Source: Cylindrospermum stagnale PCC 7417 (lineage in GTDB: Bacteria > Cyanobacteriota > Cyanobacteriia > Cyanobacteriales > Nostocaceae). Taken from it: 64,000 nt of DNA. The position numbers and the translations under genes were made by a program. Each line of letters starts with the position of its first letter. The first letter of the stretch is position 1. The DNA lies in the NCBI RefSeq assembly GCF_000317535.1, contig NC_019757.1:2248501-2312500 (forward strand), given 5' to 3'. The notes below the pieces were generated by a model. That model saw only the letters and a list, made by a program, of their open reading frames with translations, was not told where the DNA came from and ran no database searches. Shown here piece by piece: positions 1-26,608 of the stretch.

Positions 1-734
1 TATTACGAGATATTGCTGCCCATGTTCGCCAACGGGCGAAAGTATATGAAAAATGGGGATTTGGCAACAAAGGCGGGCGCGGTTTAGGCATCAGCGCCTT
101 ATTTGCCGGAGCCAGCGGCACCGGTAAAACAATGGCAGCAGAAGTCATCGCCGACGAACTACGCTTAGACTTGTACCGCATCGATTTAAGTCAGGTGGTT
201 AGTAAGTATATTGGCGAGACAGAGAAAAACTTGCGCCAAGTATTTGATGCAGCAGAAGTTGGGGGAGCAATTTTGCTCTTTGATGAAGCAGATGCCCTAT
301 TTGGTAAGCGTAGCGAAGTCAAAGACAGTCATGATCGCCATGCCAACATTGAAGTCGGCTACTTGCTGCAACGCATGGAAGCTTATCGGGGTTTAGCAAT
401 ACTCACCACCAACTTAAAAAATTCACTCGATCAGGCTTTTATGCGCCGGATTCGGTTTATCGTTCAGTTCCCCTTCCCCGATATCAACCAACGGGCCGAG
501 ATTTGGCAGCGCATCTTCCCCAAAGCCACCCCAACCCAAGGCTTAGATGCCAATAAATTAGCGAAGTTAAATGTATCTGGTGGTAATATTCGCAACATTG
601 CCCTGAATGCAGCTTTTCTAGCAGCTGACGCTGGGGAGCCTGTAGAGATGAAGCATATTTTACAGGCGGCTAAGAGCGAGTATGCCAAGCTGGAACGACC
701 AATGACAGATACAGAGGTCAAAGGCTGGGTTTAA
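1..734 (+). CDS. AAA+ ATPase of the contractile injection system (Afp15/Cis15 type), 5' end outside window
   Basis: The frame is open from base 3 to the stop at 734, so the gene begins upstream of the window. Walker A (GASGTGKT) lies at 108-131, upstream of the first ATG at 132. Walker B (LLFDEADALFG) lies near 273-305, a sensor-1-like TTN and the FMRRIRF arginine-finger segment near 410-460, and a C-terminal lid follows. The sequence class is the single-AAA-domain ATPase found in eCIS loci (Afp15 of the antifeeding prophage, Pvc15), thought to act in particle assembly. The tube, spike and baseplate genes downstream support this assignment. The first ATG seen here is internal and is not the true start. 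Confidence 0.85.
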   Translation, partial: LRDIAAHVRQRAKVYEKWGFGNKGGRGLGISALFAGASGTGKTMAAEVIADELRLDLYRIDLSQVVSKYIGETEKNLRQVFDAAEVGGAILLFDEADALFGKRSEVKDSHDRHANIEVGYLLQRMEAYRGLAILTTNLKNSLDQAFMRRIRFIVQFPFPDINQRAEIWQRIFPKATPTQGLDANKLAKLNVSGGNIRNIALNAAFLAADAGEPVEMKHILQAAKSEYAKLERPMTDTEVKGWV

Positions 735-6540: not shown

Positions 6541-8958
6541 GTGGTTAAGGACACTGGTAAACAGATAGCTAAAGAAGCCTGGGAGCGTGAAGCTATCAGT
6601 CAACAGGCTCAAAGCAAACTTCGCGCCCAAATTAAGTTACCTACGCCATTACGCTGGCTAGAGAGATGGAGTTGGGTTGTCCCGGTAGTTCAAGAAAAAG
6701 CTGCTCCCCTCACCGAAACTATCAAAGCCAGACTACCTAAAAGATTTTTCCAGAAAGAACAAAACCCAGCAGATGTAGTACCTGAGTCTATTCCCACCGC
6801 CATCACGCTTCAACCACCAGTTTATCTGGGAGTTGATCCCATTTACAGAAAGTATCACTGCGTCTACGGGAACACCTTAGGCTGTGAATGGACACAGAAA
6901 ACATTAGAGCAAGATCCCACAGCCACGAATTGTCTAAAATGCGGTTTTCCGACTATTTTGCCCCCAAGGATCGAGGTTCGGGGATATCGGGGTAGATATC
7001 GTGTAGATAGTTTTCTCGGACAACGGGGAATGGGGCGTTTGTACCGAGGAATTCAGGTTGCAGATCAACAGCCAGTAGTAATTAAAGAATATCTGCTGCC
7101 TAACCCTTTTAGCCTGGAAGAGACAAGAAGCCGGAAACAAGTCTTTGAAAGTGTAGCTGGATTGACTTTAGCCGATGGCAGAATTCAGGATATTCGGTTA
7201 AATTCACCTTGGGATGCGATCGCCGATCCAGTCAAAGAATGCTGCTATCTTGTTACCAATGGTCATCAAGATGGATATCCCACTCTCCGCGCCTACCTCA
7301 CCAGTAATGGCCCAATGACAGAGGCAGAAGTGCGCCGTGTTCTTAACCAAGTGCTGCAAACCCTAGAATTTCTGCACACTCAAAAATTTAGTCTCCCTTC
7401 CGGTCAAATAAAGCAGAAAATAGCACACGGTAATATCAGTCTCGATAGCCTGCTGATTATGGCAGACACCACAGAATTTTTTATCCATGTGAGTGATTTA
7501 GCACTTTGGGAACGTTTGTTTGATCTGCCAACCGCTAGAATAGCCATTCCGATCATTTCCCAGGACTTAGTAGATTTGGGATATGTTGCCTTTTACCTAT
7601 TAGCAGGAGGCACAGTAGATCCAGTTAGCAACCAGCCTCTAAACCCCAAATATGAGCAGCATTGGAAACCAGTAGAACCTGCACTTAAAACTTTCATTCG
7701 GCGACTATTAGAGCTAGAAACACCTTTTGCTAACAGCGAAGAAGCGCGGCAAGCACTATTACAACTACCTCCACCTCCGCCGAATGACATGTTAGTAATT
7801 ACAGGAGAAATTGAAGAAGACAAAACTAAATTACGCCGCCCACCATTACTACTTTTAGGAACTCTGGGCTTAGTATTACTGGGGGCACTAATATGGTTTC
7901 TCATCCAAAAATCTCAAAAGCAGGAAACTTCATCGGATGACGTAGTAATTTGCTGTTTGAAAGACGTGTCTGCTGTGCCCCCTGGAAGATATACCTACAC
8001 CGGTGAAACAGGCGGAATCTGGAGTTATATACAACGGCAACGCAATTTGACATTCCAGAACCAAACCCTGGAAGAAACACTCGAAAAAAGTCAGCCTAAA
8101 TTACAACTAAATTATCAACCAGATGATTCACTCGCCAAAGCAATTTCTGAAGTCGAATCGGGAAAAATAGACTTTGCTGTCACTAATTTAGTTAATCAAT
8201 TAACGCCACAATTACGATACAAAGAAGTTGCCTATGACGGTTTAGTTGTATTTGTGGCTTTTAGCTACTCAAAACGTGAAAGAAGTCTGCCAAATGCATT
8301 AAATGGAAAGATTAGCTTTGAGCAACTACGAGATTTATACACAGGCAAAATTACAAATTGGAGTCAAATAAAAGGCGCTAACTTACCTAATTTACCAGTC
8401 AAACTTTATATACCACCTGAACAAGAAGCATTACAAATTTTTGAACAACGAGTACTGAAACAAGAAAGTGCGATCGCAGCCTTTAAAAATTTGCAGACCC
8501 AAAATCAACAGCAAAATACACTTATTACAAGTTCCACTGGAGCCATTACCACTCTTCCTACCTTAAACATGCTACAGCAAGTACTAGAAGACTTCGAGAA
8601 AGATGATATTGGCAGCATTGGATTTGCCACATTCAGCCAGGTTTTTGGTCAGTGTTCTGCTTATCCTCTGGCTGTGGTAGATGGTAATAAAGCTGAAGTA
8701 CAGACTTTAGTCAACGACAAGGGTAATTCAATAGACCCCAATACAGATTTATGTGGTGAAAAAGGAAGCTACAAACCTAACATCCAAGTGTTTAGAACAG
8801 GGAGCTATCCACTAGGATATCCGATCATCGTACTTTATCCAGGAGATAACAGCCGCCCCCCTATCGGTCAGAAATTTGCCGATATGCTGAGAACAGCAGA
8901 AGTACAGCGCCTTTTAGAGAAAGCAGGTTTAGTACCACTACAAAAAACTCAAAAGTAA
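6541..8958 (+). CDS. Membrane protein: zinc-ribbon-like segment, kinase-like domain lacking catalytic residues, TM helix, PstS-like domain
   Basis: 805 residues; GTG start with AAAGG about 10 bases upstream. Order: basic N-terminus; four cysteines at 107, 115, 131 and 134 (the last pair in CLKCGFP) as a possible zinc ribbon; kinase fold from about 150, with glycine loop GQRGMGRLYRG (160-170) and lysine VVIKEY (K182). The catalytic loop reads HGNISLDSLL (297-306) instead of HRDLKxxN, and the DFG position reads SDLAL. These losses suggest a pseudokinase. One membrane helix lies at about 434-455, followed by a 330-residue domain resembling the phosphate-binding PstS family (AVTNLVNQL, IGSIGFATFSQV, YPIIVLYPG). 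The predicted layout is kinase-like part in the cytoplasm and binding domain in the lumen or periplasm. Its place inside the injection-system locus suggests sensing or anchoring. Confidence 0.75.
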   Translation: MVKDTGKQIAKEAWEREAISQQAQSKLRAQIKLPTPLRWLERWSWVVPVVQEKAAPLTETIKARLPKRFFQKEQNPADVVPESIPTAITLQPPVYLGVDPIYRKYHCVYGNTLGCEWTQKTLEQDPTATNCLKCGFPTILPPRIEVRGYRGRYRVDSFLGQRGMGRLYRGIQVADQQPVVIKEYLLPNPFSLEETRSRKQVFESVAGLTLADGRIQDIRLNSPWDAIADPVKECCYLVTNGHQDGYPTLRAYLTSNGPMTEAEVRRVLNQVLQTLEFLHTQKFSLPSGQIKQKIAHGNISLDSLLIMADTTEFFIHVSDLALWERLFDLPTARIAIPIISQDLVDLGYVAFYLLAGGTVDPVSNQPLNPKYEQHWKPVEPALKTFIRRLLELETPFANSEEARQALLQLPPPPPNDMLVITGEIEEDKTKLRRPPLLLLGTLGLVLLGALIWFLIQKSQKQETSSDDVVICCLKDVSAVPPGRYTYTGETGGIWSYIQRQRNLTFQNQTLEETLEKSQPKLQLNYQPDDSLAKAISEVESGKIDFAVTNLVNQLTPQLRYKEVAYDGLVVFVAFSYSKRERSLPNALNGKISFEQLRDLYTGKITNWSQIKGANLPNLPVKLYIPPEQEALQIFEQRVLKQESAIAAFKNLQTQNQQQNTLITSSTGAITTLPTLNMLQQVLEDFEKDDIGSIGFATFSQVFGQCSAYPLAVVDGNKAEVQTLVNDKGNSIDPNTDLCGEKGSYKPNIQVFRTGSYPLGYPIIVLYPGDNSRPPIGQKFADMLRTAEVQRLLEKAGLVPLQKTQK

Positions 8959-9078: not shown

Positions 9079-9237
9079 ATGCCAACTACTAATGAAAATC
9101 AAGACAAATCTCAAGCAGTTGCAAAGTTAGCAGGTAAAGTGATGCGCGATCGGCAACTGCTATCAGTCCTCAGTGATAAAGTTTATGAATTGATGCTTGA
9201 AGATTTGCGCCACCAAAAAGAACGGAGTAAAAATTAG
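9079..9237 (+). CDS. Small conserved-looking eCIS protein, 52 residues
   Basis: ATG 9079 to TAG 9235-9237, MPTTNENQDKSQAVAKL... ending LMLEDLRHQKERSKN. It is a charged, mostly helical peptide with a central VMRDRQLLSVLSDKVYELML segment. The stop lies 13 bases before the tube gene ATG, and the intervening AGAGGAA can serve that gene, so the two are probably co-transcribed. I recall small proteins of this kind next to tube genes in cyanobacterial eCIS loci but cannot name a family. Confidence 0.6.
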   Translation: MPTTNENQDKSQAVAKLAGKVMRDRQLLSVLSDKVYELMLEDLRHQKERSKN

Positions 9238-9250
9238 AGGAAGTGGAATT

Positions 9251-9748
9251 ATGGCTAGTTCAAGTCGCGAATTAAATTACGTTACAGCAAATCGTTTTTA
9301 TGTAGAAATAGAGAGTACCGTTGCGGCTAGTTTCACCGAGTGTCAAGGTTTGGGTGTCACTATTAAAACTGAAAAAATTTTAGAAGGTGGTGTCAATGAT
9401 CAACAAAAAGTCCTTTTAAATCCAGCAGAATTTTCAGACGTAACGCTCAAGCGCGGTATTACCGACGACTTAACTTTCTGGAATTGGATTAATAAGACTC
9501 TGAGCGGTAAACCAGAACGCCGTAATGTCAATATTTTGGTTTTTAACCAAGCAGGAGAAACAATGCAGTGTTGGACGTTACTTGCTGCCGTTCCTACTGG
9601 CTGGAAAGCACCAAGCTTAAGCGCAGATTCCACTACAGTTGCGATTGAAGAATTGACTTTAACCTACGAAGGATTAAAAGTTGTTGATAAAACAAGGTCT
9701 GGTGGTGCAACGCCTCTTTCAACACGCAAAGCCTCAGGATACTTCTAG
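9251..9748 (+). CDS. Inner tube protein of the contractile injection system (T4 gp19-like)
   Basis: 165 residues. An in-frame codon at 9197 would overlap the small gene, but ATG 9251 has AGAGG at 9236-9240 and matches the family N-terminus. The sequence fits the phage tail tube family (Phage_T4_gp19; Afp1/Afp5, Cis1): NRFYVEIESTVAASFTECQGL near the start, then LKRGITDDLTFWNWI, and a C-terminal EELTLTYEGLKVV strand. Hexamers of this protein stack into the rigid tube carrying the spike and cargo. Length is normal for the family (140-170). Confidence 0.9.
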   Translation: MASSSRELNYVTANRFYVEIESTVAASFTECQGLGVTIKTEKILEGGVNDQQKVLLNPAEFSDVTLKRGITDDLTFWNWINKTLSGKPERRNVNILVFNQAGETMQCWTLLAAVPTGWKAPSLSADSTTVAIEELTLTYEGLKVVDKTRSGGATPLSTRKASGYF

Positions 9749-13263: not shown

Positions 13264-13782
13264 ATGTCAAATTTACAAAAAGCCAAACTTCTTTGTGTAG
13301 AGGGGGGCGCATCACCAATAATCTTCCAGTTCAACCCGAATGAACTGAAATTTTCGCGACAATCAAACCTGAACCCTTCAGAAGGCGCCCGCACTGAAGA
13401 CGGAATCACCAAACTCAGCTTTGCAAATCCAGCACCTTGCACCCTAACGATCAGTAACATCATACTTGATACTTATGAAAGTCAAGGAAACCTCACCGCA
13501 AATCTAGAAATATTTAAAGAATCTGTTCGCTTTGCTAAATCGGGAGAACACGCAGGGGAGCGTCCACCAATTTATCTATTTATTTGGGGCGGAACTGAGA
13601 GTCTACGTTGTTTTGTACAAAGCCTCGACTACAGTCTGACTATGTTTTTGCCTGATGGAACACCAGTGCGAGCGAAAGTCAACTTGACTTTAAAAGAAGC
13701 AGATGACTCTACTCCTAAAGGAAGCGTGGGGACTCCTGCTAAAGTAGATCGTCAAGGCAATAAACGCCCCTCCAAGAAGTAA
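13264..13782 (+). CDS. CIS tube adaptor protein (Afp7-like N-terminal domain)
   Basis: 172 residues; ATG preceded by GAAAGG. The motif FQFNPNELKFSRQSN near residue 21, then the SFANPAPCTLTISNIILDTYES and FIWGGTESLRCFVQSLDYSLTMFLPDG strands, fit the CIS_tube domain of Afp7/Pvc7 proteins, which sit between the tube and the spike. Family members often add a C-terminal LysM domain; here there is only a short Lys/Pro-rich tail. It lies between the repeat protein and the spike gene. Confidence 0.85.
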   Translation: MSNLQKAKLLCVEGGASPIIFQFNPNELKFSRQSNLNPSEGARTEDGITKLSFANPAPCTLTISNIILDTYESQGNLTANLEIFKESVRFAKSGEHAGERPPIYLFIWGGTESLRCFVQSLDYSLTMFLPDGTPVRAKVNLTLKEADDSTPKGSVGTPAKVDRQGNKRPSKK

Positions 13783-13797
13783 AATTAGAATTAATTC

Positions 13798-13814
13798 GAC
13801 TTTTGGGGGATAGT
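13798..13814 (+). promoter_or_regulatory. Copy 2 of the 17-base motif upstream of eCIS genes
   Basis: GACTTTTGGGGGATAGT, 69 bases before the spike gene ATG at 13867; three mismatches to the copy at 9012. Confidence 0.35.
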
Positions 13815-13866
13815 CTACAATTAAATGCCCTAATACGCTATGGGAAATTAACTCCTCATAATCTGT

Positions 13867-15780
13867 ATGGCTGGCAGTTACATACCCGAACCGCTTTTGC
13901 AAATTGAGGGCGCCGATGCTTCTAAAGATTTGCTCAATGACATTTTGCAAATCTCCGTGGAAGAGAGTCTTCACCTACCGGGAATGTTTACTCTGATAAT
14001 CAACAACGATTTCTTTCCCGGACGCTCAGAGGAAAAAGCTTGGAAACACCAGAAATCATTTGCTATTGGTAAGAAGATCAAAATTGGTTTTACCTCCAGT
14101 ACCACAGGAAACGCCGATTTTGATGACGAGGAGACGGGCTATGTATTAGAAGGGGAAATTACAGCCATAGAAACTGAGTTTACTGAAAAGTCTCAGGCTC
14201 CCATCATCATTCGTGGTTATGATATTTCTCACCGCCTACACCGAGGACGTAATAACCGTTCGTTCCAAAACATCACTGATAGCGATATTATTAAGCAAGT
14301 TATTGGTGAAGTGGGCATTGCTACTGGCACTATTACCTCTACTACCATTGTCCATGATTACGTCTTTCAAGAAAATCAGACGAATATGGAATTTTTGCGG
14401 GAAAGGGCGGCCCGCGTTGGTTTTGAACTGTATGTTCAAGATGGCAAACTTAACTTCCGCGAACCCAAAACAGACCAAGAGTTGACTCTCGAGTGGTTAA
14501 AAGATATACATAGCTTCCGCGTCCGAGTTACCAGTTCTGAACAGGTGAGTTCTGTTGAAGTGCGGGGTTGGGACTATGCTCAAAAGCGGCCAATTGTCTC
14601 GACGGCAACAAAAGAGAAGGTAATCACCAAAACAGATAATGGGATAGGTAGTGAAAATAGTACTAAATTTAGTACTAAGCCAAAGATGATCGTTGTAGAT
14701 CAGCCAGTTTTTAGTGCTAAGGAAGCTGAAAAAATAGCTCAGTCTCTATGTGATGAACTTGGGGGCGAATTTGTTAATGCTGATGCTAAAGGTGAGGGTA
14801 ATCCCAAAATCAGGCCAGGGCGAGTAGTGAAGCTCACGGGTATGGGCACTTATAGCGGTGATTACTACGTCACGGAAACTCGTCACTTTTTCCATGAAAG
14901 AAAATATATTACAGAATTTAGTGTCCGCGGCTTACGTGCTGGAGACTTGTTAGCTACTTTATCTCCCCAAACTCATCTGCAACCGGGGCAAACTTTGTTA
15001 GTGGGAATTGTGAGTAATAATAAAGACCCTAAAGGCTGGGGACGTGTCAGAGTCAAGTTTCCTACCCTAACCGAGAAGCATGAAAGCAACTGGGCGAGAG
15101 TAGTGAGCGCAGGAGCCGGGCCTGGTAGGGGGTTTGACTGTTTGCCAGAAGTCAATGATGAGGTTTTGGTAGCTTTTGAACATGGCGATATCCATCGCCC
15201 CTATGTAATTGGTGGTGTCTGGAATGGTACAGATGCGCCACCAGAAAAAGTTGATGACACTATCGTTGGAGGCAAAGTCCGCCAGCGGACTTTTAAAACC
15301 CGTGTTGGGCATAAATTACAGTTTGTGGAGGAGGATAAAGGCACTAAAAAAGGTGTTTATCTTAATACCACCGATGGTCACAATTTGCGTTTGAATGATA
15401 GCCAGAAGTTTGCTGAATTAGAAACTACTGGGGGACATAAATTCCGCTCTGATGATAGCAATAAGACTATCAGCTTAACTTCAACGGGTGACATTACAGT
15501 TAAAGCTGGGACGAGTGGAACTACAAACAAAAGTAGTATTAGTGCTGGTGAAATAGCCCTGACAGGAACCCAAAAGATTAGCTTGACTGTAGGCTCTAGT
15601 AGTATAGAATTAACACCTAGCGGAATTACTATTAGAACGGCTGGAACGCTCAGTATTCAATCTAGTGGCACTATTAGTGTGCAATCTACAGCTTCTTTGA
15701 GTCTGAATTCTAGTACGGTTAGCGTGACTGGAGGAGCAACTGTAGGAATAACTGGTGGTGTAGTCCGTCTAAATTGCTAA
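13867..15780 (+). CDS. VgrG/gp27-gp5-like spike hub protein (Afp8 type)
   Basis: 637 residues. The N-terminal 350 residues fit the gp27-like hub (LHLPGMFTLIINNDFFPG, GYDISHRLHRGRNNRSFQ, VRGWDYAQKRPI). An OB-fold segment follows (LVGIVSNNKDPKGWGRVRVKFP, then GFDCLPEVNDEVLVAFEHGD, RPYVIGGVWNG), as in gp5/VgrG. The C-terminal 150 residues are short alternating Thr/Ser/Gly/Ile strands, as in the needle-like beta helix. The trimer would plug the tube and carry the PAAR tip encoded next. Length is usual for the family. Confidence 0.92.
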   Translation: MAGSYIPEPLLQIEGADASKDLLNDILQISVEESLHLPGMFTLIINNDFFPGRSEEKAWKHQKSFAIGKKIKIGFTSSTTGNADFDDEETGYVLEGEITAIETEFTEKSQAPIIIRGYDISHRLHRGRNNRSFQNITDSDIIKQVIGEVGIATGTITSTTIVHDYVFQENQTNMEFLRERAARVGFELYVQDGKLNFREPKTDQELTLEWLKDIHSFRVRVTSSEQVSSVEVRGWDYAQKRPIVSTATKEKVITKTDNGIGSENSTKFSTKPKMIVVDQPVFSAKEAEKIAQSLCDELGGEFVNADAKGEGNPKIRPGRVVKLTGMGTYSGDYYVTETRHFFHERKYITEFSVRGLRAGDLLATLSPQTHLQPGQTLLVGIVSNNKDPKGWGRVRVKFPTLTEKHESNWARVVSAGAGPGRGFDCLPEVNDEVLVAFEHGDIHRPYVIGGVWNGTDAPPEKVDDTIVGGKVRQRTFKTRVGHKLQFVEEDKGTKKGVYLNTTDGHNLRLNDSQKFAELETTGGHKFRSDDSNKTISLTSTGDITVKAGTSGTTNKSSISAGEIALTGTQKISLTVGSSSIELTPSGITIRTAGTLSIQSSGTISVQSTASLSLNSSTVSVTGGATVGITGGVVRLNC

Positions 15781-15814
15781 AGTCAATAATCTGCATTCAA
15801 AAGGAAGATTGAAG

Positions 15815-16102
15815 ATGTTTCCAGCTGCACGACTTTCTGATATCACTGTTACAGGCGATCCAATCACTGCAATGGGAGTGCCAAATGTACTGATTGCGGG
15901 ATTGCCGGCAGCTTGTGTGGGTGACCTTGTGGTGGGGCCTGTGGTGACTGGAAACATTGTCATGGGTTCTGCTACGGTCTTGATTGGTGGACGACCGGCG
16001 GCACGTGTAACATCTCAGGTGGCTGGAGTTAACACCGTTACAGGGGTGCCCTTAACTACGATGGTGGCAATAGGGGCGCCAACTGTGTTAATTGGGGGAT
16101 AA
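15815..16102 (+). CDS. PAAR-repeat spike tip protein (Afp10 type)
   Basis: 95 residues. ATG 15815 is chosen over TTG 15809 because AAGGAAG at 15801 lies at ordinary spacing and MFPAARLSD is the usual PAAR N-terminus. Repeated Gly/Val-rich segments (VLIAGLPAACVGD, VLIGGRPAARVTS, TVLIGG) match the PAAR family, which caps the VgrG-type spike with a sharp cone. Follows the spike gene directly. Confidence 0.9.
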   Translation: MFPAARLSDITVTGDPITAMGVPNVLIAGLPAACVGDLVVGPVVTGNIVMGSATVLIGGRPAARVTSQVAGVNTVTGVPLTTMVAIGAPTVLIGG

Positions 16103-16174
16103 ATTACTCTGTGCTGATGGCAACGTAATATCAATTTCGTGCGGTAATCATCCTCATCAAATGCCGTTGAACTC

Positions 16175-16191
16175 GACTTTTGGCGAATGGT
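16175..16191 (+). promoter_or_regulatory. Copy 3 of the 17-base motif upstream of eCIS genes
   Basis: GACTTTTGGCGAATGGT, 85 bases before the gp25 gene; two mismatches to the copy at 9012. A HIP1 octamer lies between it and the gene. Confidence 0.35.
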
Positions 16192-16259
16192 ATTAGTTTT
16201 ACAGATGAGCGTAAAGTAGCGATCGCTCCTCTAGACTAAAAATTCACTTTATATTTACT

Positions 16260-16682
16260 ATGCCAGAAGTCAATAATAGTCAGCAGGCTGGCTACATGGG
16301 TACGGGCTGGTCTTTTCCATTACGGATGAATGTACAGGGAAGTTTACAACTCAGCAGAGCCGAGCGGAATATAGAAGAGTCAATAAAGCTGATTCTGCGT
16401 ACCAATTTAGGGGAGCGGGTATATCGACCTAATTTTGGTTCGCGGCTGTCTGAGTTAACCTTTGCACCTATGAATACCCAAACTCTATTGCTTTTGCGCC
16501 TGCATGTCCAAGAAGCTTTGACCATGTGGGAGCCGCGCATTGTCTTGGACTCGGTGCTTGCTGATCCCGATCCGCAGCGGGGGCGGGTAGATATTATTAT
16601 CGAATATCATCCCAAGGAAGGTTACGATACTCGAAGTATAGTCTATCCCTTTTATATCAACGGTTCAGAACTGGAAGGTTAA
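16260..16682 (+). CDS. Baseplate wedge protein, gpW/gp25 family (Afp9 type)
   Basis: 140 residues. The N-terminal GTGWSFPLRMN, then SIKLILRTNLGERVYRPNFGSRLSEL and the LRLHVQEALTMWEPRI helix, match gp25-like proteins, which join sheath to baseplate. Length is usual for the family. It sits between the PAAR and baseplate J genes as in other eCIS loci. Confidence 0.92.
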   Translation: MPEVNNSQQAGYMGTGWSFPLRMNVQGSLQLSRAERNIEESIKLILRTNLGERVYRPNFGSRLSELTFAPMNTQTLLLLRLHVQEALTMWEPRIVLDSVLADPDPQRGRVDIIIEYHPKEGYDTRSIVYPFYINGSELEG

Positions 16683-16817
16683 AAGTCAAGCCGAACATTG
16701 CAAAAGCTAAACACCAAAGAAAGTTTAAAAATTAATCATACTCACAAATAAATATTGCTTTTACCTTGTAGTTTTTGCCTTTGACATTTTCTCAGTACTG
16801 CTTTACAGGCAATAATT

Positions 16818-19007
16818 ATGGAATTTGATTTTTTACCGAAATTACCAAAGTCAAATCTAGACGATCGCACATTTCAAGATTTAGTAGAAGAGTGCATCCT
16901 GCGGATTCCTCGCTACTGTCCAGAGTGGACGAATTATAACCCCAGTGATCCGGGCATGACGCTGATTGAGTTATTTGCCTGGTTAACTGACCAAATGTTG
17001 CTGCGGTTCAACCAAGTACCACAGCGCAATTATGTGACTTTTTTGGAATTGCTGGGGGTACGGTTGCTGGCCCCTGCGCCCGCAGTGTCAGATATTACTT
17101 TTTATTTGAGTGCGGCTTTACCCACTAGCTACACGATTCCGGCGGGGGTGGAGATAGCAACGGTACGAACCGAAACCGAGGAAGCAATAACTTTTGCCAC
17201 TGATCGTCAGCTAATCATTGACAAACCCTACATTCGCCATTTTCTGACTTCCCAGACTGTAGAAGATAAACCGCAAATATTGCGCGATCGCTTTACCAAC
17301 TTGTGGACTACGCGCTCTGATGGTGAGTGGTACGGTAGAGAGTTAGCATTTTTTGACGAGCAACCCCAACCAGGAAACAGCTTTTATTTAGTTATCGATG
17401 GGAATTGCCAGTGTGATGGCAATGTTTTAGCGTTGAAATTTCAAGGGGAAGCGGCAACAAGTACAGGTATTAATCCTGATGCTCCACCCCGGCTCTGGGA
17501 AGCTTGGAACGGCGTCTACTGGGAATCAGTTCTCCTCACAGAATCGGATGACAGCACCAGAGGCTTCAGTTTTAGCGAATTGGCGGCCCTCGGAGGTAAT
17601 CCTTTACAAGGTGCAGATGTGGTGCTGCATCTTCCCCAAAGCTGGCCTGTGACTACCTTTACTGCCTACCAAGGGCGCTGGTTGCGTTGCGTCCACACCG
17701 CCACCTTTGTCAATAAACCCGGATACAGCAATTCTCCCCGAATAGTTGGTTTGGCTGTCAGATCAATTGGTGGGACTGTGGGAGCCAGCCAAAGTGAAGT
17801 AATTCGCGATGAAATTTTGGGGGAAAGTGACGGTCTACCCGGTCAGACTTTTCAGTTGCAGGGAGTTCCTGTTTTGAACCGCCGGGAAGATGAATATATT
17901 CTCGTTTCACCACCTAGTGCCCTACCGCAAAGATGGCAAGAAGTCAAAGATTTTGCCGAATCAAGTTCCCAAGATTTACATTACGTGATTGATTCGCGCA
18001 CAGGGATAGTGCAGTTTGGACCGCTGATTCGCGAAGCTGGCCAACTCCAGCAGCAAACTCAGTTTCGGGCGATCACGCAAACAGGAAAACTCAATACATT
18101 GCCAAACCCAGCCATCAATGATGAATTAGAGCGGCAATATGGGGCTGTACCGCCGAGAGGCTCAATGATTCGGATGGTTGGTTACCGCAGCGGTGGCGGG
18201 TGCAAAGGTAATGTGCAGAAAGAAGCAATTAGGGTGGCAAAAACAGCAATTCCCTATGTTGCCAAAGTGTTAAATCACACGGCTGCCAGAAACGGAGCCG
18301 ATGCCGAATCCTTGGAAGATGCTGTATTGAGAGTACCAGCAATGCTCCGGACGCGCGATCGCGCCGTCACACCAGAAGACTTTGAAGTCCTGACTTTACA
18401 TGCTGGAGGTGGTGGGGTGGCCCGTGTTCGTTGTTTGCCATCAACATCTACTAAGGAAGCGGGGACAGTTAGGTTACTAGTTGTACCCGCAGCAAATACA
18501 GAAATGATCGGTCGCGGCGAAGGCATCGAACCAGAACTATTTAACCTGAATTCGCAACTCCGCGACCAGATTATGGCTTATTTAGACGAACGACGATTAT
18601 TAGGAGTGCAAGTCCGACTGCAAGCACCCGAATACGTAGGCGTGGCGGTGCAAACAGAAGTTGCTCTGGAGTCAGAGTATAACAATCCGATTGCCCAACC
18701 AGAAATTCTCTGGAAATTGCGCGTCGCCTTATATCGGTTTCTCAACCCGATTACTGGTGGTTGGGATGGTAAAGGCTGGCCCTTTGGTCGTCCTTTGTAT
18801 CCTTCAGATATTGTGAATTTGTTCCAGAAATTTCCGGCTGTGCGCTATTTGGGAGTAGTGCAGCTCTTTGAATTGCGCTATGTAGGACAAACCTGGTTGC
18901 GATCGCTGCCACAAAACCCAGTTATTGATCCTGGACCTCTAGGACTCATTTGTTCCTGGCAGAACAATCGCCTGCGCTCCGGTCACGTTGTCAATCTCAT
19001 CCAATGA
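16818..19007 (+). CDS. Baseplate J-like protein (Afp11/gp6 type)
   Basis: 729 residues, ATG 16818. The N-terminus has the family signature NYNPSDPGMTLIELFAWLTD and PQRNYVTFLELLG. The C-terminal half has the J-like core (RVPAMLRTRDRAVTPEDFE, VRLLVVPAA, YLDERRLLGVQVRLQAPEYVGVAV split by a few residues). Forms the wedge of the baseplate with the products of the gp25 and tail I genes. The stop is 6 bases before the next ATG, so the genes are coupled. Confidence 0.9.
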   Translation: MEFDFLPKLPKSNLDDRTFQDLVEECILRIPRYCPEWTNYNPSDPGMTLIELFAWLTDQMLLRFNQVPQRNYVTFLELLGVRLLAPAPAVSDITFYLSAALPTSYTIPAGVEIATVRTETEEAITFATDRQLIIDKPYIRHFLTSQTVEDKPQILRDRFTNLWTTRSDGEWYGRELAFFDEQPQPGNSFYLVIDGNCQCDGNVLALKFQGEAATSTGINPDAPPRLWEAWNGVYWESVLLTESDDSTRGFSFSELAALGGNPLQGADVVLHLPQSWPVTTFTAYQGRWLRCVHTATFVNKPGYSNSPRIVGLAVRSIGGTVGASQSEVIRDEILGESDGLPGQTFQLQGVPVLNRREDEYILVSPPSALPQRWQEVKDFAESSSQDLHYVIDSRTGIVQFGPLIREAGQLQQQTQFRAITQTGKLNTLPNPAINDELERQYGAVPPRGSMIRMVGYRSGGGCKGNVQKEAIRVAKTAIPYVAKVLNHTAARNGADAESLEDAVLRVPAMLRTRDRAVTPEDFEVLTLHAGGGGVARVRCLPSTSTKEAGTVRLLVVPAANTEMIGRGEGIEPELFNLNSQLRDQIMAYLDERRLLGVQVRLQAPEYVGVAVQTEVALESEYNNPIAQPEILWKLRVALYRFLNPITGGWDGKGWPFGRPLYPSDIVNLFQKFPAVRYLGVVQLFELRYVGQTWLRSLPQNPVIDPGPLGLICSWQNNRLRSGHVVNLIQ

Positions 19008-19013
19008 CCTTTT

Positions 19014-20063
19014 ATGGCTAGTCAAACCCTACACCTTAAACTCACGCCGATGCAAATACCGGACGCGGTGCAGCCGTCAGCAGTCAGTACAGGTGCAGCC
19101 GATTCTCAGCGTTCAGCACTCAGCACTCAGCACTCAGTCATATCTGGGTGTGACGTGGTGGTTTACCCCAGAGAACCTAGTGAAATAGTTTTGCAGCTAG
19201 AAAACCTGGGAAGTCGAAATCTGCGATTAAATGTCCAAATTGAGGGCAATTTTCCCTCTGATTGGTATCGCATCGGCATGGAAGGTTATGATCTGGCACC
19301 GCGATCGCGAATGGATGTCGCCCTCTACTTCCAAATTCCAGTTGATTTCTTTGAAAATCAAGGGTCTTTGCCCCCAGGTCAGTCATTGGTACTAGATTAT
19401 AACTGCCGCCTGCTTGTCTACCACGTAGAAGAAAATGGCGGCAGGTTATTAATTGAAACAGCCGGCTTAAATCTGTATATTCGTCCCCGCAGCTTATATC
19501 TGGATTTTTTGCCCAGCCTCTATCGAGAAGTAGACTTTATTGGTCGCTTCTTGAAAATTTTCGAGCAGGCTTTTGAACCAGCAGTTCATACCCTAGATAA
19601 CCTCTGGGCTTACCTAGACCCGATAACTGCACCTCAATCAATGCTGCCTTTTCTGGCTTACTGGGTAGCTTGGCCAATGGACAGTCGTTGGACTGTAGAA
19701 CGGCAACGCTATCTGATTCGTTCAGCTGTTGAGCTTTACCGCTGGCGGGGAACGCGCCGGGGTTTACGGCTATACATCCATCTTTATACAAACTTAAATC
19801 TAGACGAACATCTACCCTCAGAAGCTCATAAGCACATTGGCATTGAAGAAATCAGCGGTCAAGGCTTTGTTCTCGGCGACACAAGGATAGGTGAAGATGC
19901 CATGATTGGCGGTGGACGTCCCTATCATTTTATTGTCCGCCTGCGCCCTGACTACCCAAACCAGGTAGATGAACAATTAGTCCGCCACATTATTGATCAA
20001 GAAAAACCTGCTTTCTGCACCTATGAACTTTATATAGAAGCACCATTAGTCGATAGTCAATAG
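19014..20063 (+). CDS. Phage tail protein I-like baseplate protein (Afp12 type) with N-terminal Ig-like extension
   Basis: 349 residues, ATG 6 bases after the baseplate J stop. Residues about 165-265 fit tail protein I (LPSLYREVDFIGRFLKIFEQ, LPFLAYWVAWPMDSRW, YRWRGTRRGLRLYIHLYT). The N-terminal 150 residues are an Ig-like beta domain (VVVYPREPSEIVLQLENLG, FPSDWYRIGMEGYDLAPRS), similar in style to domains in the products at 21403 and 23807. Residues about 33-43 (SQRSALSTQHS) are encoded by the heptamer repeat at 19113-19140, an unusual insertion in coding sequence. Confidence 0.85.
   Translation: MASQTLHLKLTPMQIPDAVQPSAVSTGAADSQRSALSTQHSVISGCDVVVYPREPSEIVLQLENLGSRNLRLNVQIEGNFPSDWYRIGMEGYDLAPRSRMDVALYFQIPVDFFENQGSLPPGQSLVLDYNCRLLVYHVEENGGRLLIETAGLNLYIRPRSLYLDFLPSLYREVDFIGRFLKIFEQAFEPAVHTLDNLWAYLDPITAPQSMLPFLAYWVAWPMDSRWTVERQRYLIRSAVELYRWRGTRRGLRLYIHLYTNLNLDEHLPSEAHKHIGIEEISGQGFVLGDTRIGEDAMIGGGRPYHFIVRLRPDYPNQVDEQLVRHIIDQEKPAFCTYELYIEAPLVDSQ
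19113..19140 (+). repeat. Heptamer tandem repeat (CAGCACT) inside the tail protein I gene
   Basis: GTTCAGCACTCAGCACTCAG and on: three CAGCACT units plus flanking variants. The same heptamer occurs at about 21386-21400 just before the ATG at 21403. Short tandem heptamers are a known feature of heterocystous cyanobacterial genomes; here one is translated. Confidence 0.75.
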
Positions 20064-21402: not shown

Positions 21403-23577
21403 ATGGCCGTCAAACTGATCAATGCCAATATTTCCACACAAGTACTCACATTTAAACCAGGTAGTTCACCAGCCTCTTTTGAAGTGGCTGTTGTGAATGA
21501 GAGCAATCAATTTGCTTCTTTTCAATTGGATATCATAGCGGCAGGTAGTAGCGAGAATCTGGGTGCTAACTGGTACAATATTTCCCCTGCCGTGAGTGCG
21601 AAAATCCCACCCGGAGACAGCACAAAGTTTTCGATCACGATTATTGATACACCTGTTGCTGGTTTCGTCGGCAAAATGAACCTGATAGTCCGCATCTTAT
21701 CGCTGGAACTGCGAGATGAGGACAGACAATTGCTGCGATTGGTAATAGAGCCAGGAATCGGGTCTGTACCCATGCAGATTGATTTACCTGTGCGAGAATT
21801 TACGACTCAACCAGAAGCACTCATTGAAATACCAGTCCGTGTCTTCAATCCCAGTCAAATTTCTGCTGATGTCTCACTTCGCTTGATTGGGGAGGCATCG
21901 AAGTGGCTGCTAGATGGCGAACGACGGTTACGTGTTGCTTCCGGTGCTCAGGTAGAAACAACTTTTTTCTGTCAACTACCAGTTCCACAAGAAACCATTA
22001 ACAAGCCATATCCTTTCATAATTGAAGCTACACATACTAATGGTTCCTCATCTCGTAGTCCAGAAGGGGTAATTAAAATACTGCCAGCGGGATTTATCGA
22101 TTTCCGCTGCTTTCCAGAAAAACAGCAGATTCCTGCATCTCGTCCCTGGTTACCTCAGTTGCGGACTAACTCGGCAACTTACCAAGTTGAGTATCAGAAT
22201 GCTAGCAATTTAACTCGGCAGATGCGCGTTGATGTCAGAAAAGCCGACGAGGAACAGTCGAAATGTTTTCTGGATATTCAGCCAGAAATGGTAGACCTGA
22301 ATCCAGGTGAGATGAAACAATTGCAGATATTGGTGAGCAAGCGTCGTTCCTGGTTTGGTCTAGCTCAAAAACTCTCATTTATCGTCCAGGCGATAGCACC
22401 AGATCAGCGGATTAATATCACCAATGAAAAGCATCTCATCAAACTCACTATCCATCCTGTATTGCATCCCTGGCTACAGTTACTGCTAGGAATTCTACTG
22501 GCATTTCTCCTCTGGCAATTGTCGTGGCTCAACCCCGATAACCCATTTTTTGGACATCAGCGTTCTGTCACTTCTGTGCAACTGAATGGCGTGGGTGATA
22601 AAGCTGTGAGTGGCTCTCAAGACCAAAGCATCATCAGATGGAATACTCGCGGCTTTAGCAATCCATTGGTCAATCAACATGATGCAACTCTGGCAAAAAA
22701 TATCAGTAAATCTGTGCGTGTTGTCCGCTATAAACCTGTAGATAATGATGTAGTGGCAGCGGGTTTAGAAAATGGAGAAATCCAACTTTGGGACGTAATT
22801 TCTCCTAGCAAAAAGCCTAAAGCTACTTTTTCTTTGAATAAAGATGACCGTGTTTTTGATTTAAAGTTTAGCCCAAGTTCTCAATATCTATTCAGCGGTC
22901 ACGGCAGCGGTTTAGTTTTGCAATGGAATATTAATGATGCTCTGTTAACTAGCGCTACCAGTGCAAATGAATCTGTAAAGTTTAATCGGCCTGAAAAAAT
23001 TAAGAAATTTAATTTTGCTATTTATAGTTTGGCACTGGTGGGAAAAGAAAGGGAAAATTTGGTGATTGGACAGAGGTACAACAACTTAGAAGTATGGAAT
23101 TGGCAGAAAGATAAAACTTTTAAAATGCCCTACAAGCCGGCAGGTAGTCAAGAAGATTATATTTTTAGTTTGGCTAGTCCTGAATACAAACCCAATCTGT
23201 TGGCAACAGCCGATAACCAAGGGCGAATTACTTTATGGGATATGCAACCATGCCTAGAAAATAAAGGTGAGTGTACAGTTATTGATCAATGGATTGATGG
23301 CCACGGCGGTAAGGCTGTGCGTTCGGTTGCTATCAGTGGTGATGGTTGCTATTTGGTAAGTGGGGGTGATGATGGTCGGGTGATATTATGGCCCTTGACC
23401 AAAGAAGGTAAGCGTGCATTACCTACAGGTAAACCAGTACGTTCTACGGCATATAAATTTAATAGTGTTGATATCAAAATAGTTAAAAAAAGGATTTTAG
23501 TGCTAAGTGGAGATGATCGGAAGAAAGTGAGCTTAGATTTTATGGAAACAGACAGAAAATCCCAGTGTATTCAATAG
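21403..23577 (+). CDS. Single-pass membrane protein: Ig-like domains and WD40 propeller
   Basis: 724 residues; start preceded by a heptamer repeat and no clear Shine-Dalgarno. Residues 1-350 are Ig-like beta domains (SFEVAVVNESNQFASFQLDI, NWYNISPAVSAKIPPGD). A membrane helix follows at about 356-376 (LLLGILLAFLLWQLSW). Residues 385-720 hold WD40 repeats (HQRSVTSVQLNGVGDKAVSG..D.SIIRWN; AVRSVAISGDGCYLVSGGDDGRVILWP). There is no cleavable signal, so one face is cytoplasmic. WD40 parts usually bind proteins. In this locus it could anchor the particle to a membrane; inference. Confidence 0.75.
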   Translation: MAVKLINANISTQVLTFKPGSSPASFEVAVVNESNQFASFQLDIIAAGSSENLGANWYNISPAVSAKIPPGDSTKFSITIIDTPVAGFVGKMNLIVRILSLELRDEDRQLLRLVIEPGIGSVPMQIDLPVREFTTQPEALIEIPVRVFNPSQISADVSLRLIGEASKWLLDGERRLRVASGAQVETTFFCQLPVPQETINKPYPFIIEATHTNGSSSRSPEGVIKILPAGFIDFRCFPEKQQIPASRPWLPQLRTNSATYQVEYQNASNLTRQMRVDVRKADEEQSKCFLDIQPEMVDLNPGEMKQLQILVSKRRSWFGLAQKLSFIVQAIAPDQRINITNEKHLIKLTIHPVLHPWLQLLLGILLAFLLWQLSWLNPDNPFFGHQRSVTSVQLNGVGDKAVSGSQDQSIIRWNTRGFSNPLVNQHDATLAKNISKSVRVVRYKPVDNDVVAAGLENGEIQLWDVISPSKKPKATFSLNKDDRVFDLKFSPSSQYLFSGHGSGLVLQWNINDALLTSATSANESVKFNRPEKIKKFNFAIYSLALVGKERENLVIGQRYNNLEVWNWQKDKTFKMPYKPAGSQEDYIFSLASPEYKPNLLATADNQGRITLWDMQPCLENKGECTVIDQWIDGHGGKAVRSVAISGDGCYLVSGGDDGRVILWPLTKEGKRALPTGKPVRSTAYKFNSVDIKIVKKRILVLSGDDRKKVSLDFMETDRKSQCIQ

Positions 23578-23806
23578 TGATTGAGGCTAGTTTTAAGTTA
23601 ATAGAATCTGAGATCAACAAGTTTTGCAGAAGTTAAAGTAAATTGGATTTGAGTTGATGAATAATTGAAAAAACCTGTCAGAACTTTTAGCTAAATAGTG
23701 GGTCAAATACTGAGTTTTAGAAAGGAAAAAATCATTTCGACTCAAAACTAATTACACCTTTGCTTTCTCAACACTATAAAACTCAGCACTACATGGGGGA
23801 ATAAGC

Positions 23807-26608
23807 GTGACTACAGATTCAAGAATCACAGATTCAAAACCAGGTTTGAGTATGGCAGAGGTGCTGACACTGCCGACTCAACAACGCAAAATAGTTCAGT
23901 GGATCATGAAGCGATCGCCTGAGGGAGTAACTCTCGCCCAAGCGGCGGCTCAAATAGACCAAGAGGAACAAGCTACCCTGGCTTTGTTGGATGAGTTAAT
24001 TGATCAAGGTTTTGTCCAACAAATCTTAGCAGATGGCGAGGTCAACTACCGGATTAACCTAGCTGCAAAACGTGGTATTCAGCAACAGAACCTGCAACAA
24101 ACCCTGGCCCCAGGCAGTCCCCTAGCGATAATTTTTAATCCCTCTGGGGATATCCCTGTCAAGGCAGGTGCTAATTTTGAAATTTATGTCACGGTGACCA
24201 ATAAAGGCGCCCAGAGTGCATTAATTGATGTTTTTATCGATGAATTATCCTATCAGTTGATTGAATGGTGTAAGGCACCCCATCAACGGTTAGCCTTAGG
24301 GCCAAACTCGATCAGTGAAGTTTTATTTGAATTTGAAGTGCCTTTAGAGGCAATTCCGCAAACATATAACTATTTAATAGTCGTTGATGCGCCGTCCCAT
24401 TACCCAGAAGATACGCCGATTCGCCATAATGCGCGAATTCAGGTGATGCCGGCGATTGAAACCGTTGTTCGGGTTAGTGATCCGACATTTACGGTTTTAC
24501 CACCCACAAGTTCGCGATCGCCAGCCCAAATTCCACCAGGAGGCATTCTTCAAGTTAATGTCAATGTCCACAACCGTTCCGACAGAGTAGACCGATTTCG
24601 CCTGAGTTGTCTAGATTTGGAAGCCAGTTGGTTTACTGTGCGCTATCCAGAAGGTATGGATCTGGTGGGACTGGTGACGCCAAATATCGGTTTGGATCTC
24701 AACCCTGGTGAAAAAGGGGAAATTATACTGCTGATTAACCCGCCAATCGGGGCTTATGCCAGCCTTTACTATCCCAGCATCCGCTTACACTGCGCCAACG
24801 ATCCAGACCTGGTGCTGTTAGATGTGGTGTATCTAGAGATCCTGCCATTCTATCTGCTGAATGTTGAACTGCTGACAGTTGTGGGTAGAGTCAGACGCCT
24901 ACATGGTGTGTATGAAGTCAAGTTGACTAATTCGGGAAACACTGTGCGGGAAGTTGTTTGTATCCCCGTGACTGCTGATGAAGACAAAATCTGTACTTAT
25001 GAAGTTTCTCCCCCTGTACTGCGCTTATTACCAGGAGAAAGAACTAATTCGCGAGTCACAGTTACTCCTACTCGGTGGTGGCGGCGGCCGATTTTAGGGG
25101 CGGGGAGGTTGCTGAATTTTCGGATTGAAATCGAAGATAAACAGCAATTACCACTGCCGAATACTACCTTTACAGGCACTTTAATCTGGGAACCTCGCCC
25201 TTGGTGGCAGTTTTTGCTGGTATTGTTGACGGTTTTAGGAACTGTCGCCGCGATCGCCTTTCTGATTTGGTGGTTGTGGCGATCGCCAGCATCACCCAGA
25301 ATCAGCAACTTTAACTCGGACGACTCCTTATATCAACAAGCCAATGGCGACTTTATTCGTCTTAATTGGCAAATCCGCAACCCCAGGCAATTGCAAAGTT
25401 TGACCCTCACCAGTTCATCGGCCAACGGCAGTGCTGCGGTGCAACCAAGAGTTTATAACTTCAACGGTAGAGTTCCCGATGAACTCCAACAATTCTGTCA
25501 AATCGCCACACTCCTCACCTGTTCAAATGTGCCTACAGATGCCTACAAAGCTGGCGATTACGTTTTTGAACTCAAAGCATTTGCCAAAAACAGGCCAGAA
25601 GCAGCAGCGGATGTGATCAAAACGACTACTATCACAATTGCCCCTGTCCCACCGCCACAAATTCTCGATTTTTCATCGGCACAACCCATCTACCAAGAAG
25701 CACCAGCCAAGAAAAAAGCCACTATAAAATCAATTAGCCCAGATACAATTCGCTTGAATTGGCGAATTAGTGACTTAGGCAAAATCAAAGAACTGCGGGT
25801 AATTGGGCGATCACCCGATGGAGTAGTTAATAGCGAACTCCAAACTTATAACCTCAATCAAGGCGTTCCTAAAGAACTGGCAGCTTTTTGTTCTCAAGAT
25901 CCAGATAAACTAAATTGTCGCAATGTACCTACCAATAATCGTGGGGCTGGCGACTACATCTTTGAATTGCAATTATTCGCAAAAACTGCTGCTGATAAAC
26001 CAACAGCATCTCAAAAAACAGATGTAATTAAAGTTCAACCCCTGCCTAGCCAAATTGTAGAATTCAAAATAGATGGCAAAAACCCATTACCTAAATATTC
26101 GATTCTCATCAACCAGCTTAAACCGATCAAATCGATCAATTTATCCTGGAAAGTAGAAGGTAGTAGCAATCTTAAAGTTGAGTTGCTACCTGCACCGGGA
26201 AATGTCACCCAAACAGGCACTATAGCTTACCCAATTAGTGACCAACCTAGTAGCGAAACAATCACCCTACAAGTAACCAGTGCTACTGGCGAAAAAATCA
26301 GTCGGGCGGTGACTATCGAAACTGTTCTTCCGCCTACACCTGCTGAAACACCGGGCTTAACGGTACCGCCAAACGCTAATGGGGTGAAGCCAACAAACGA
26401 TCTGCCGGCAATTCCGCCGACATTGGGCCAAGCTGGATCACCCGCTGGTGGTGGGGCAAATTCTCCAAATGGTTCTCCCCCAAATGGTTCTCCCACAAAT
26501 GCTTCTCCCCCTACAGATTCGCCTGCTGCTACTCCTAGCCCTAATTCACCTGCACTTTCTGAACCAGGAACACTTTCACCTTTGGAACTACCACCTGGAT
26601 TTGATTAA
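23807..26608 (+). CDS. Single-pass membrane protein: winged-helix N-terminus, Ig-like domains, proline-rich C-terminus
   Basis: 933 residues; GTG start 23807. Residues about 15-85 resemble a winged helix (LTLPTQQRKIVQWIMKRSPEGV, ATLALLDELIDQGFV). Residues 100-460 are Ig-like domains (FEIYVTVTNKGAQSALIDVF, FRLSCLDLEASWFTVRYPEG). A membrane helix lies at about 466-490 (LLVLLTVLGTVAAIAFLIWW), then three similar beta modules (ISNFNSDDSLYQ; ILDFSSAQPIYQE; IVEFKIDG) and a Pro/Ser/Asn tail. It closes the eCIS block. The winged helix may be used for protein contact rather than DNA binding. Candidate membrane anchor of the particle (inference). Confidence 0.7.
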   Translation: MTTDSRITDSKPGLSMAEVLTLPTQQRKIVQWIMKRSPEGVTLAQAAAQIDQEEQATLALLDELIDQGFVQQILADGEVNYRINLAAKRGIQQQNLQQTLAPGSPLAIIFNPSGDIPVKAGANFEIYVTVTNKGAQSALIDVFIDELSYQLIEWCKAPHQRLALGPNSISEVLFEFEVPLEAIPQTYNYLIVVDAPSHYPEDTPIRHNARIQVMPAIETVVRVSDPTFTVLPPTSSRSPAQIPPGGILQVNVNVHNRSDRVDRFRLSCLDLEASWFTVRYPEGMDLVGLVTPNIGLDLNPGEKGEIILLINPPIGAYASLYYPSIRLHCANDPDLVLLDVVYLEILPFYLLNVELLTVVGRVRRLHGVYEVKLTNSGNTVREVVCIPVTADEDKICTYEVSPPVLRLLPGERTNSRVTVTPTRWWRRPILGAGRLLNFRIEIEDKQQLPLPNTTFTGTLIWEPRPWWQFLLVLLTVLGTVAAIAFLIWWLWRSPASPRISNFNSDDSLYQQANGDFIRLNWQIRNPRQLQSLTLTSSSANGSAAVQPRVYNFNGRVPDELQQFCQIATLLTCSNVPTDAYKAGDYVFELKAFAKNRPEAAADVIKTTTITIAPVPPPQILDFSSAQPIYQEAPAKKKATIKSISPDTIRLNWRISDLGKIKELRVIGRSPDGVVNSELQTYNLNQGVPKELAAFCSQDPDKLNCRNVPTNNRGAGDYIFELQLFAKTAADKPTASQKTDVIKVQPLPSQIVEFKIDGKNPLPKYSILINQLKPIKSINLSWKVEGSSNLKVELLPAPGNVTQTGTIAYPISDQPSSETITLQVTSATGEKISRAVTIETVLPPTPAETPGLTVPPNANGVKPTNDLPAIPPTLGQAGSPAGGGANSPNGSPPNGSPTNASPPTDSPAATPSPNSPALSEPGTLSPLELPPGFD

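Follow-up and report, generated by a model that had tools for sequence, protein, structure and literature searches.

A pseudokinase joined to a PstS-fold domain as a candidate membrane receptor of a cyanobacterial contractile injection system

How intracellular contractile injection systems (CIS) are told to dock at the membrane and to fire is an open question. A stretch of 64,000 nucleotides from the cyanobacterium Cylindrospermum stagnale PCC 7417 (contig NC_019757.1, positions 2,248,501 to 2,312,500; referred to below as the window) contains, within a CIS gene cluster, an open reading frame (ORF) at positions 6541 to 8958 whose product was given the working name PKPBP. A first-pass annotation had described this product as a pseudokinase joined through a membrane helix to a PstS-like periplasmic binding protein (PBP) domain, and had suggested that a ligand signal on one side of the membrane could be relayed to the injection machinery on the other. 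Our analysis confirms that the gene is real and that its anatomy is the one described. By analogy with CisA, a membrane protein of the Streptomyces coelicolor CIS, we propose that PKPBP may be a receptor/adaptor that uses its dead kinase as a docking or relay module and recruits or licenses the CIS particle, a reading to which we assign a probability slightly above one half (about 0.53).

Anatomy of PKPBP

Pfam searches, profile comparisons and an AlphaFold2 model together gave the order of parts along PKPBP, namely, a zinc-ribbon-like motif, a kinase fold, one membrane helix and a PstS fold. The Pkinase match (residues 153 to 283; E = 1.5e-4) remained below the family cut-off, with 21.7 bits for a required 31.7, and the PBP_like_2 match (residues 509 to 781; E = 2.9e-13) exceeded it. 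Hydropathy analysis detected one hydrophobic segment, starting at residue 437, and the model (mean pLDDT 81.6; pTM 0.48) contained a helix at residues 436 to 460. Structural comparison of this model by VIA-align matched residues 139 to 414 with kinases and residues 466 to 803 with phosphate-binding proteins, thereby bearing out the predicted similarity of the C-terminal part to binding proteins. Full-length relatives are present across many species, and dN/dS ratios were about 0.14 to 0.27 for both halves in four pairs, with synonymous sites near saturation, indicating purifying selection on PKPBP. Thus, the observation of this protein is more than chance.

Conservation was analyzed in a wider family set comprising 80 of 163 matching stretches, all of them cyanobacterial by record title. 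The main alignment had 56 rows, 24 sequences at least 88% alike having been dropped beforehand and one (L111, broken frame) left out; sub-alignments of 35 and 31 of these rows were picked by hand. Since one of the three patterns used for retrieval of the 56-row set contains HGN, counts from this set are biased toward HGN, and 21 PKPBP sequences were also collected without any motif filter. The window protein is counted within the sets of 56, 35, 31 and 21 sequences.

The glycine loop and the β3 lysine reported by the first-pass annotation are present and conserved (G160 in 44, G163 in 52, G165 in 56 and Lys182 in 53 of the 56 sequences). The reported replacement of HRD by HGN also held, as HGN occupied this site in all 21 filter-free sequences and residue 298, at the position of the HRD aspartate, was Asn in 54 and His in 2 of the 56 sequences but never Asp. 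Alignment by hhalign (98.9%) with four cyanobacterial kinases bearing HRD and DFG paired HGN with HRD and DLA with DFG, and the DFG aspartate was kept in 55/56 sequences. The claim that DFG is missing is therefore only literally true, since the motif reads DLA but retains its aspartate. Residue 303, at the site of the catalytic-loop asparagine, was Ser or Thr in 56/56 sequences, and the αC glutamate site, as placed by hhalign, was occupied by Leu, Val or Ile in 52/56. The distance from the DFG aspartate to the αF aspartate was 23 to 24 residues in all 56 sequences versus 36 to 46 in the four HRD/DFG kinases, indicating that the activation segment is much shortened. PKPBP thus has the bilobal fold, glycine loop, β3 lysine and DFG aspartate in common with Hanks-type bacterial Ser/Thr kinases, such as Stk1/PknB of Staphylococcus aureus and PknA and PknI of Mycobacterium tuberculosis, but unlike these enzymes it lacks the HRD aspartate, the catalytic asparagine and a full-length activation segment. 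An active kinase was rejected on these grounds, together with the hydrophobic residue that hhalign places at the αC glutamate site, and we conclude from the alignments that this half of PKPBP is a pseudokinase, conserved as such in the family.

The C-terminal half was compared, in the 35-row sub-alignment, with 21 other cyanobacterial PBPs that have a membrane segment and in which the PBP domain either stands alone or is preceded by, for example, a kinase or CHAT domain; three proteins (L138, L139 and L140) were excluded from this loop comparison. The motifs GS[STP], SR and [SG]GT, which we take to be the anion contacts of PstS, were found in 0, 0 and 0 of the 35 PKPBP sequences versus 20, 20 and 17 of the 21 other PBPs, respectively. 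A looser form of the second motif, [STGV]S[RS], fitted 3 of the 35 sequences. PKPBP has conserved residues of its own at or near these sites (W494, P625 and E629, each in at least 90% of the 56 sequences), so that the ligand site looks repurposed rather than eroded. Cysteines at both the Cys705 and Cys738 sites were found in 20 of 21 related PBPs. The description of this half as a phosphate-type binding domain therefore stands for the fold but not for the ligand, phosphate being unlikely in view of the loss of the three motifs; phosphate sensing was for this reason rejected as the leading interpretation. Loss of the anion motifs, the shortened activation segment and an N-terminal four-cysteine motif are features that the first-pass annotation had not listed.

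Fold and sequence profile are those of PstS proteins (PDB entries 4omb, 1twy and 4gd5; Sll0540, entry 9l8j), from which PKPBP differs by the lack of the anion motifs, by being fused, through a membrane helix, to a kinase fold, and by the lack of ABC transporter genes among the neighbors scanned. Other cyanobacterial proteins likewise combine a cytoplasmic effector module, a membrane segment and PBP_like_2, the effector module being a kinase in L137 (2215-4455) and L144 (2194-4026) and a CHAT or caspase domain in L134 (2479-4590), L136 (1890-4025) and L140 (2662-4656) of the wider cyanobacterial set. L137 and L144 have the domain order of PKPBP but keep HRD and DFG, and they gave weak matches in the PKPBP search. 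Of the three PstS-type motifs, L137 keeps all and L144 two; L134 and L136 likewise keep at least two, whereas PKPBP has none. In locus L023, a stand-alone gene for a membrane segment and a PBP (1498-2544) lies beside a gene for an HRD/DFG kinase (2604-3950) and may represent the unfused state of a kinase-PBP pair.

Inheritance with one type of CIS

The distribution of PKPBP was investigated in 60 genomes (that of the window and 59 relatives) and in 146 genomes of the phylum, which include the window's own and overlap the 60. A close sheath was defined by an E value of <1e-200 among the 60 genomes and <1e-150 among the 146, a distant sheath match by E ≤ 1e-20 among the 60, and PKPBP by E ≤ 1e-50 among the 146. 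Among the 60 genomes, 20 had a full-length PKPBP and 19 a close sheath, all 19 having both, and 40 had neither. Only distant sheath matches were found in nine genomes, eight of which were devoid of full-length PKPBP. In the phylum sample, PKPBP was present in 11 genomes and the close sheath in 12, the 11 being common to both, and PKPBP was absent at the same threshold from the six genomes with only distant sheath matches. A search for family PF19266 gave no match in any of 14 control genomes. PKPBP thus follows one cyanobacterial CIS type (19/20 and 11/11 carriers), and Fisher's test gave p values of ~1e-14 and ~1e-15, kinship being ignored. Two genomes (G024 and G078) each have two PKPBP and two close sheath genes, and identities of PKPBP and sheath to the window genes drop together (Spearman 0.89; 19 pairs). 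Three plasmids have a PKPBP match with a coverage of 80% or more, and it is on these same three that the sheath has its best plasmid matches. Genes of the CIS core lie near PKPBP in 18 of 20 loci, in 60 of 80 loci and in 35 of the 42 loci of at least 20 kb. Together, these comparisons indicate near one-to-one inheritance of PKPBP with this sheath. The proposed relay to the injection machinery is in this respect partly supported, the relay itself being a step that we infer.

Comparison with solved structures pointed to the S. coelicolor CIS. The best PDB relatives of the window's sheath (residues 5 to 557) were 8bky and 8bl4 (E = 5e-113 and 2e-110), and those of the Baseplate_J, VgrG-like spike and Tail_P2_I proteins were 9gtp (E = 2e-116), 9gtr (E = 4e-48) and 9gtp (E = 3e-7), respectively. 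According to the portions available of two papers on the S. coelicolor CIS, one of them Casu 2023, these are entries that the two papers deposited (PMC10066040, PMC12237407). Anabaena proteins ranked lower (All3325, entry 7b5h, E = 1e-50 over sheath residues 370 to 554 only; All3320, E = 2e-30). As all four components are closest to it, the solved system nearest by sequence to the CIS of the window is that of S. coelicolor, which needs CisA. The thylakoid-anchored CIS of Anabaena described in Weiss 2022 (PMC8894136) is likewise a membrane-attached cyanobacterial system; neither "kinase" nor "PstS" appears in the main text of that paper. We considered whether the distant sheaths were of the Anabaena type, but the sheath of one such genome (G014) matched S. 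coelicolor with E = 2e-99 and All3325 with E = 1e-47, so that no claim is made on Anabaena-type genomes.

The available text on CisA (SCO4242) describes a cytoplasmic and largely unstructured N-terminus, one membrane helix and an extracytoplasmic domain similar to solute-binding domains. It reports that CisA is conserved in Streptomyces CIS clusters and needed for contraction and firing of the S. coelicolor CIS, and proposes a sensor and checkpoint role (PMC12237407). Hydropathy and the model suggest a similar layout for PKPBP, with its cytoplasmic part, single helix and extracytoplasmic domain in the predicted orientation. Homology was sought through two Streptomyces plasmid CIS loci that contain a protein identifiable as CisA by position only (L156, 30176-31285; L158, 31949-32749). 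Both proteins showed a zinc-ribbon match at the start (one below the cut-off), which parallels the zinc-ribbon-like motif of PKPBP, a membrane segment recognized by eye, and a match to the F5/8-type C family PF25302 (E = 5e-6 and 2e-12). The latter match differs from the solute-binding likeness given for the C-terminal domain in the available CisA text (PMC12237407). PKPBP is distinguished by its folded pseudokinase, in place of a largely unstructured N-terminus, and by its PstS fold, in place of an F5/8-type C match. Only an architectural parallel is therefore claimed.

What PKPBP may do for the injection system

In the proposed mechanism, PKPBP would be the dedicated bitopic receptor/adaptor of one cyanobacterial CIS type. 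The PstS-fold domain, outside the membrane, would sense a cue other than free phosphate, which may be a different ligand, a component of the cell envelope or a protein partner. Through the single helix, a conformational or oligomerization change would reach the cytoplasmic pseudokinase, which, possibly in a nucleotide-bound form, would provide a CIS part, the AAA+ ATPase or a regulator with a docking site or a switch. The particle would in this way be recruited to the membrane or licensed to fire, as by CisA in the Streptomyces system. Orientation, ligand, partner and effect on recruitment or firing are thus the predicted elements of the model. A more specific version, to which we would give somewhat less than an even chance, is that kinase-membrane segment-PBP sensors of cyanobacteria gave rise to a dead kinase and a dead phosphate receptor, which were repurposed together as the trigger gating launch or docking of a Streptomyces-like CIS, thereby replacing CisA.

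Several observations weigh against a CisA-like receptor. The CisA-position proteins match zinc-ribbon and F5/8-type C families, and the one that was compared, itself CisA by position only, showed no BLASTP similarity to PKPBP; PKPBP would accordingly take the place of CisA with a different construction. In one genome (G030), PKPBP has tube, spike and baseplate genes as neighbors, yet only distant sheath matches were found there. Conversely, one genome (G113) has a close sheath but only a diverged PKPBP relative, a 752-residue ORF ~27 kb from the sheath that aligns with a portion of the PBP half (E = 1.7e-18 against the family profile), with no Pfam domain, hence no kinase, recognized in the 564-residue part scanned; the first impression of a sheath without PKPBP was dropped when this ORF was found. 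No CIS core gene is nearby in 7 of the 42 large PKPBP loci. Finally, PKPBP lies 33 to 53 bp behind a response regulator gene in many loci, an arrangement that fits a transcriptional role equally.

This arrangement underlies the main rival, which we consider unlikely, namely, that PKPBP provides the membrane input to the two-component pair encoded next to it, a soluble histidine kinase with a LuxR-type response regulator, and governs CIS expression instead of firing. A same-strand response regulator gene is located within 12 kb upstream of PKPBP in 37 of 79 usable loci, at less than 300 bp in 33 and at 33 to 53 bp in 23, and the histidine kinase of the window's genome has HisKA/HATPase domains and no membrane segment. 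LuxR-type regulators and some histidine kinases occur beside extracellular CIS (eCIS) loci, with GerE regulators beside 25.8% of them, according to the available part of Geller 2021 (PMC8213781). However, no such regulator was found upstream within the flanks covered in the remaining 42 of the 79 loci, and since some of these span ~10 kb on both sides (L072, L074 and L083), an adjacent regulator is not needed; furthermore, PKPBP often directly precedes a tube gene instead of following a regulator. In the CIS cluster (L031, 15296-17271, + strand), a histidine kinase without a membrane segment and a LuxR-type response regulator are encoded, a pair that is directly upstream of PKPBP in many relatives. 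A role of PKPBP as a mere anchor in the membrane or a scaffold for CIS assembly, devoid of signaling, would account for the degeneracy of catalytic and ligand motifs in two preserved folds and for the lack of a membrane segment, by hydropathy, in the cluster's Tail_P2_I protein. We regard such a role as improbable, as the newly conserved W494, P625 and E629 look like a repurposed site and a PstS fold of 320 residues would be superfluous for a pure anchor.

The remaining alternatives are weaker still. Phosphotransfer or other nucleotide chemistry, such as AMPylation, could rely on the kept G163, G165, Lys182 and DFG aspartate, and SelO-type pseudokinases provide an enzymatic precedent; the absence of both the HRD aspartate and the catalytic asparagine from 56/56 sequences, the hydrophobic residue aligned with the αC glutamate and the short activation segment make this quite improbable. 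A phosphate sensor coupling CIS use to phosphate starvation is very unlikely given the loss of all three motifs, of which even the looser second pattern is met in so few sequences, and no phosphate ABC transporter gene was detected by the Pfam scan among the neighbor proteins, to which the search was confined. That PKPBP is unrelated to the CIS and merely located in CIS islands would agree with the variable gene order and with the seven large loci without a nearby core gene, but is barely credible in view of the genome-level co-occurrence, paired copy numbers and matched divergence. A receptor/adaptor of the CisA type thus remains the reading that we prefer.

The gene cluster and its implications

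The window and 20 kb upstream contain genes for a sheath, four gp19-type tube proteins, CIS_tube, a VgrG-like spike, gp25, Baseplate_J, Tail_P2_I, two Pvc16-type proteins, an AAA+ ATPase, a histidine kinase and a LuxR-type regulator, so that the sheath, tube, spike, baseplate and AAA+ genes of a CIS are found together (Table 1). No tail-fiber family was found among the cluster proteins scanned by Pfam. A same-strand tube gene follows PKPBP at 81 to 7148 bp in 42 of the 79 usable loci, at less than 510 bp in 23 of them.

Table 1. Coordinates in the window of PKPBP, its parts and neighboring CIS genes
Feature	Position	Strand	Basis or remark
PKPBP, whole gene	6541..8958	+	805 aa, GTG start; full-length relatives; dN/dS 0.14-0.27
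Four-cysteine zinc-ribbon-like motif (Cys107, Cys115, Cys131, Cys134)	6859..6942	+	Every Cys in 53/56 sequences; putative zinc binding
Pseudokinase domain, residues 139-414	6955..7782	+	
HGN (residues 296-298) replacing HRD; Ser303 replacing catalytic-loop Asn	7426..7434	+	Alignment, 56 sequences
DLA (residues 319-321), DFG equivalent, Asp kept; 23-24 residues to αF Asp342	7495..7503	+	hhalign
Single membrane helix, residues 436-460	7846..7920	+	Hydropathy; helix in AlphaFold2 model
PstS-fold domain, residues 481-803, on the predicted extracytoplasmic side	7981..8949	+	Pfam, profiles, AlphaFold2, VIA-align
Conserved YxPxxxEA, residues 623-630, at the [SG]GT anion-motif site of PstS-type relatives	8407..8430	+	
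Invariant pair Cys705 and Cys738, possible disulfide	8653..8754	+	56/56 each
CIS AAA+ ATPase gene, C-terminal part (start upstream of the window)	132..734	+	
CIS tube protein (Phage_T4_gp19), next gene 3' of PKPBP	9197..9748	+	
CIS baseplate/spike genes: CIS_tube, VgrG-like, gp25, Baseplate_J, Tail_P2_I	13264..20063	+	
Two proteins with predicted membrane segments (WD40 protein; large protein at 23807)	21403..26608	+	Hydropathy

Two proteins encoded upstream of PKPBP (915-1979 and 2942-4168, + strand) have near-identical N-terminal leaders and differing C-terminal parts and look like CIS cargo with a common loading leader. The first has a metalloprotease-like match (PF07737) just under the cut-off; matches to the second were found in 9 of 80 relative loci and, in the set of 20 loci, were confined to its first 121 residues. 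Between the tube genes, an ORF at 9764-13174 (+ strand) encodes a 1136-residue, largely repetitive protein in which a VIQPKLE-like motif, resembling the VxPKAEE of the cargo leaders, is matched 33 times, and this protein has matches in 34 of 80 relative loci. The cluster also encodes a DUF4159 protein (20103-21353, + strand) and two large proteins for which membrane segments are predicted (21403-23577 and 23807-26608, + strand), one with WD40 repeats; relatives of all three occur in some of the other loci that have this type of CIS. The protein encoded at 5524-6258 (+ strand) matches the N- and C-terminal domains of AAR2 (E = 1.9e-12 and 3.4e-11), a family from eukaryotic splicing, and it was not among the matches listed for either set of relative loci (20 and 80).

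A bitopic membrane factor of a CIS is already known, CisA being the one factor of this kind met in the literature examined. The domain make-up of PKPBP was not found described in the literature searched, and no pseudokinase in a CIS receptor role was found there, preprints and most subscription papers lying outside its scope. The word "kinase" is absent from the main text of three of the papers (PMC12210884, PMC10598620, PMC12998442). For conflict systems, the available part of Kaur et al. 2020 (PMC7159879) describes catalytically disrupted kinase domains and, in addition, modules in which membrane helices precede an extracellular PBP domain; the inactive kinases and the membrane helix-PBP modules resemble those of PKPBP but belong to different systems there, and "contractile" does not occur in the main text of that paper.

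PKPBP offers a testable handle, with one gene and two separable domains, on how intracellular CIS are directed to the membrane. If the proposed role is correct, PKPBP would be a second protein of the CisA topology, built from other domains and serving a related CIS lineage in another phylum, and bitopic receptors may then be a general solution to this problem.

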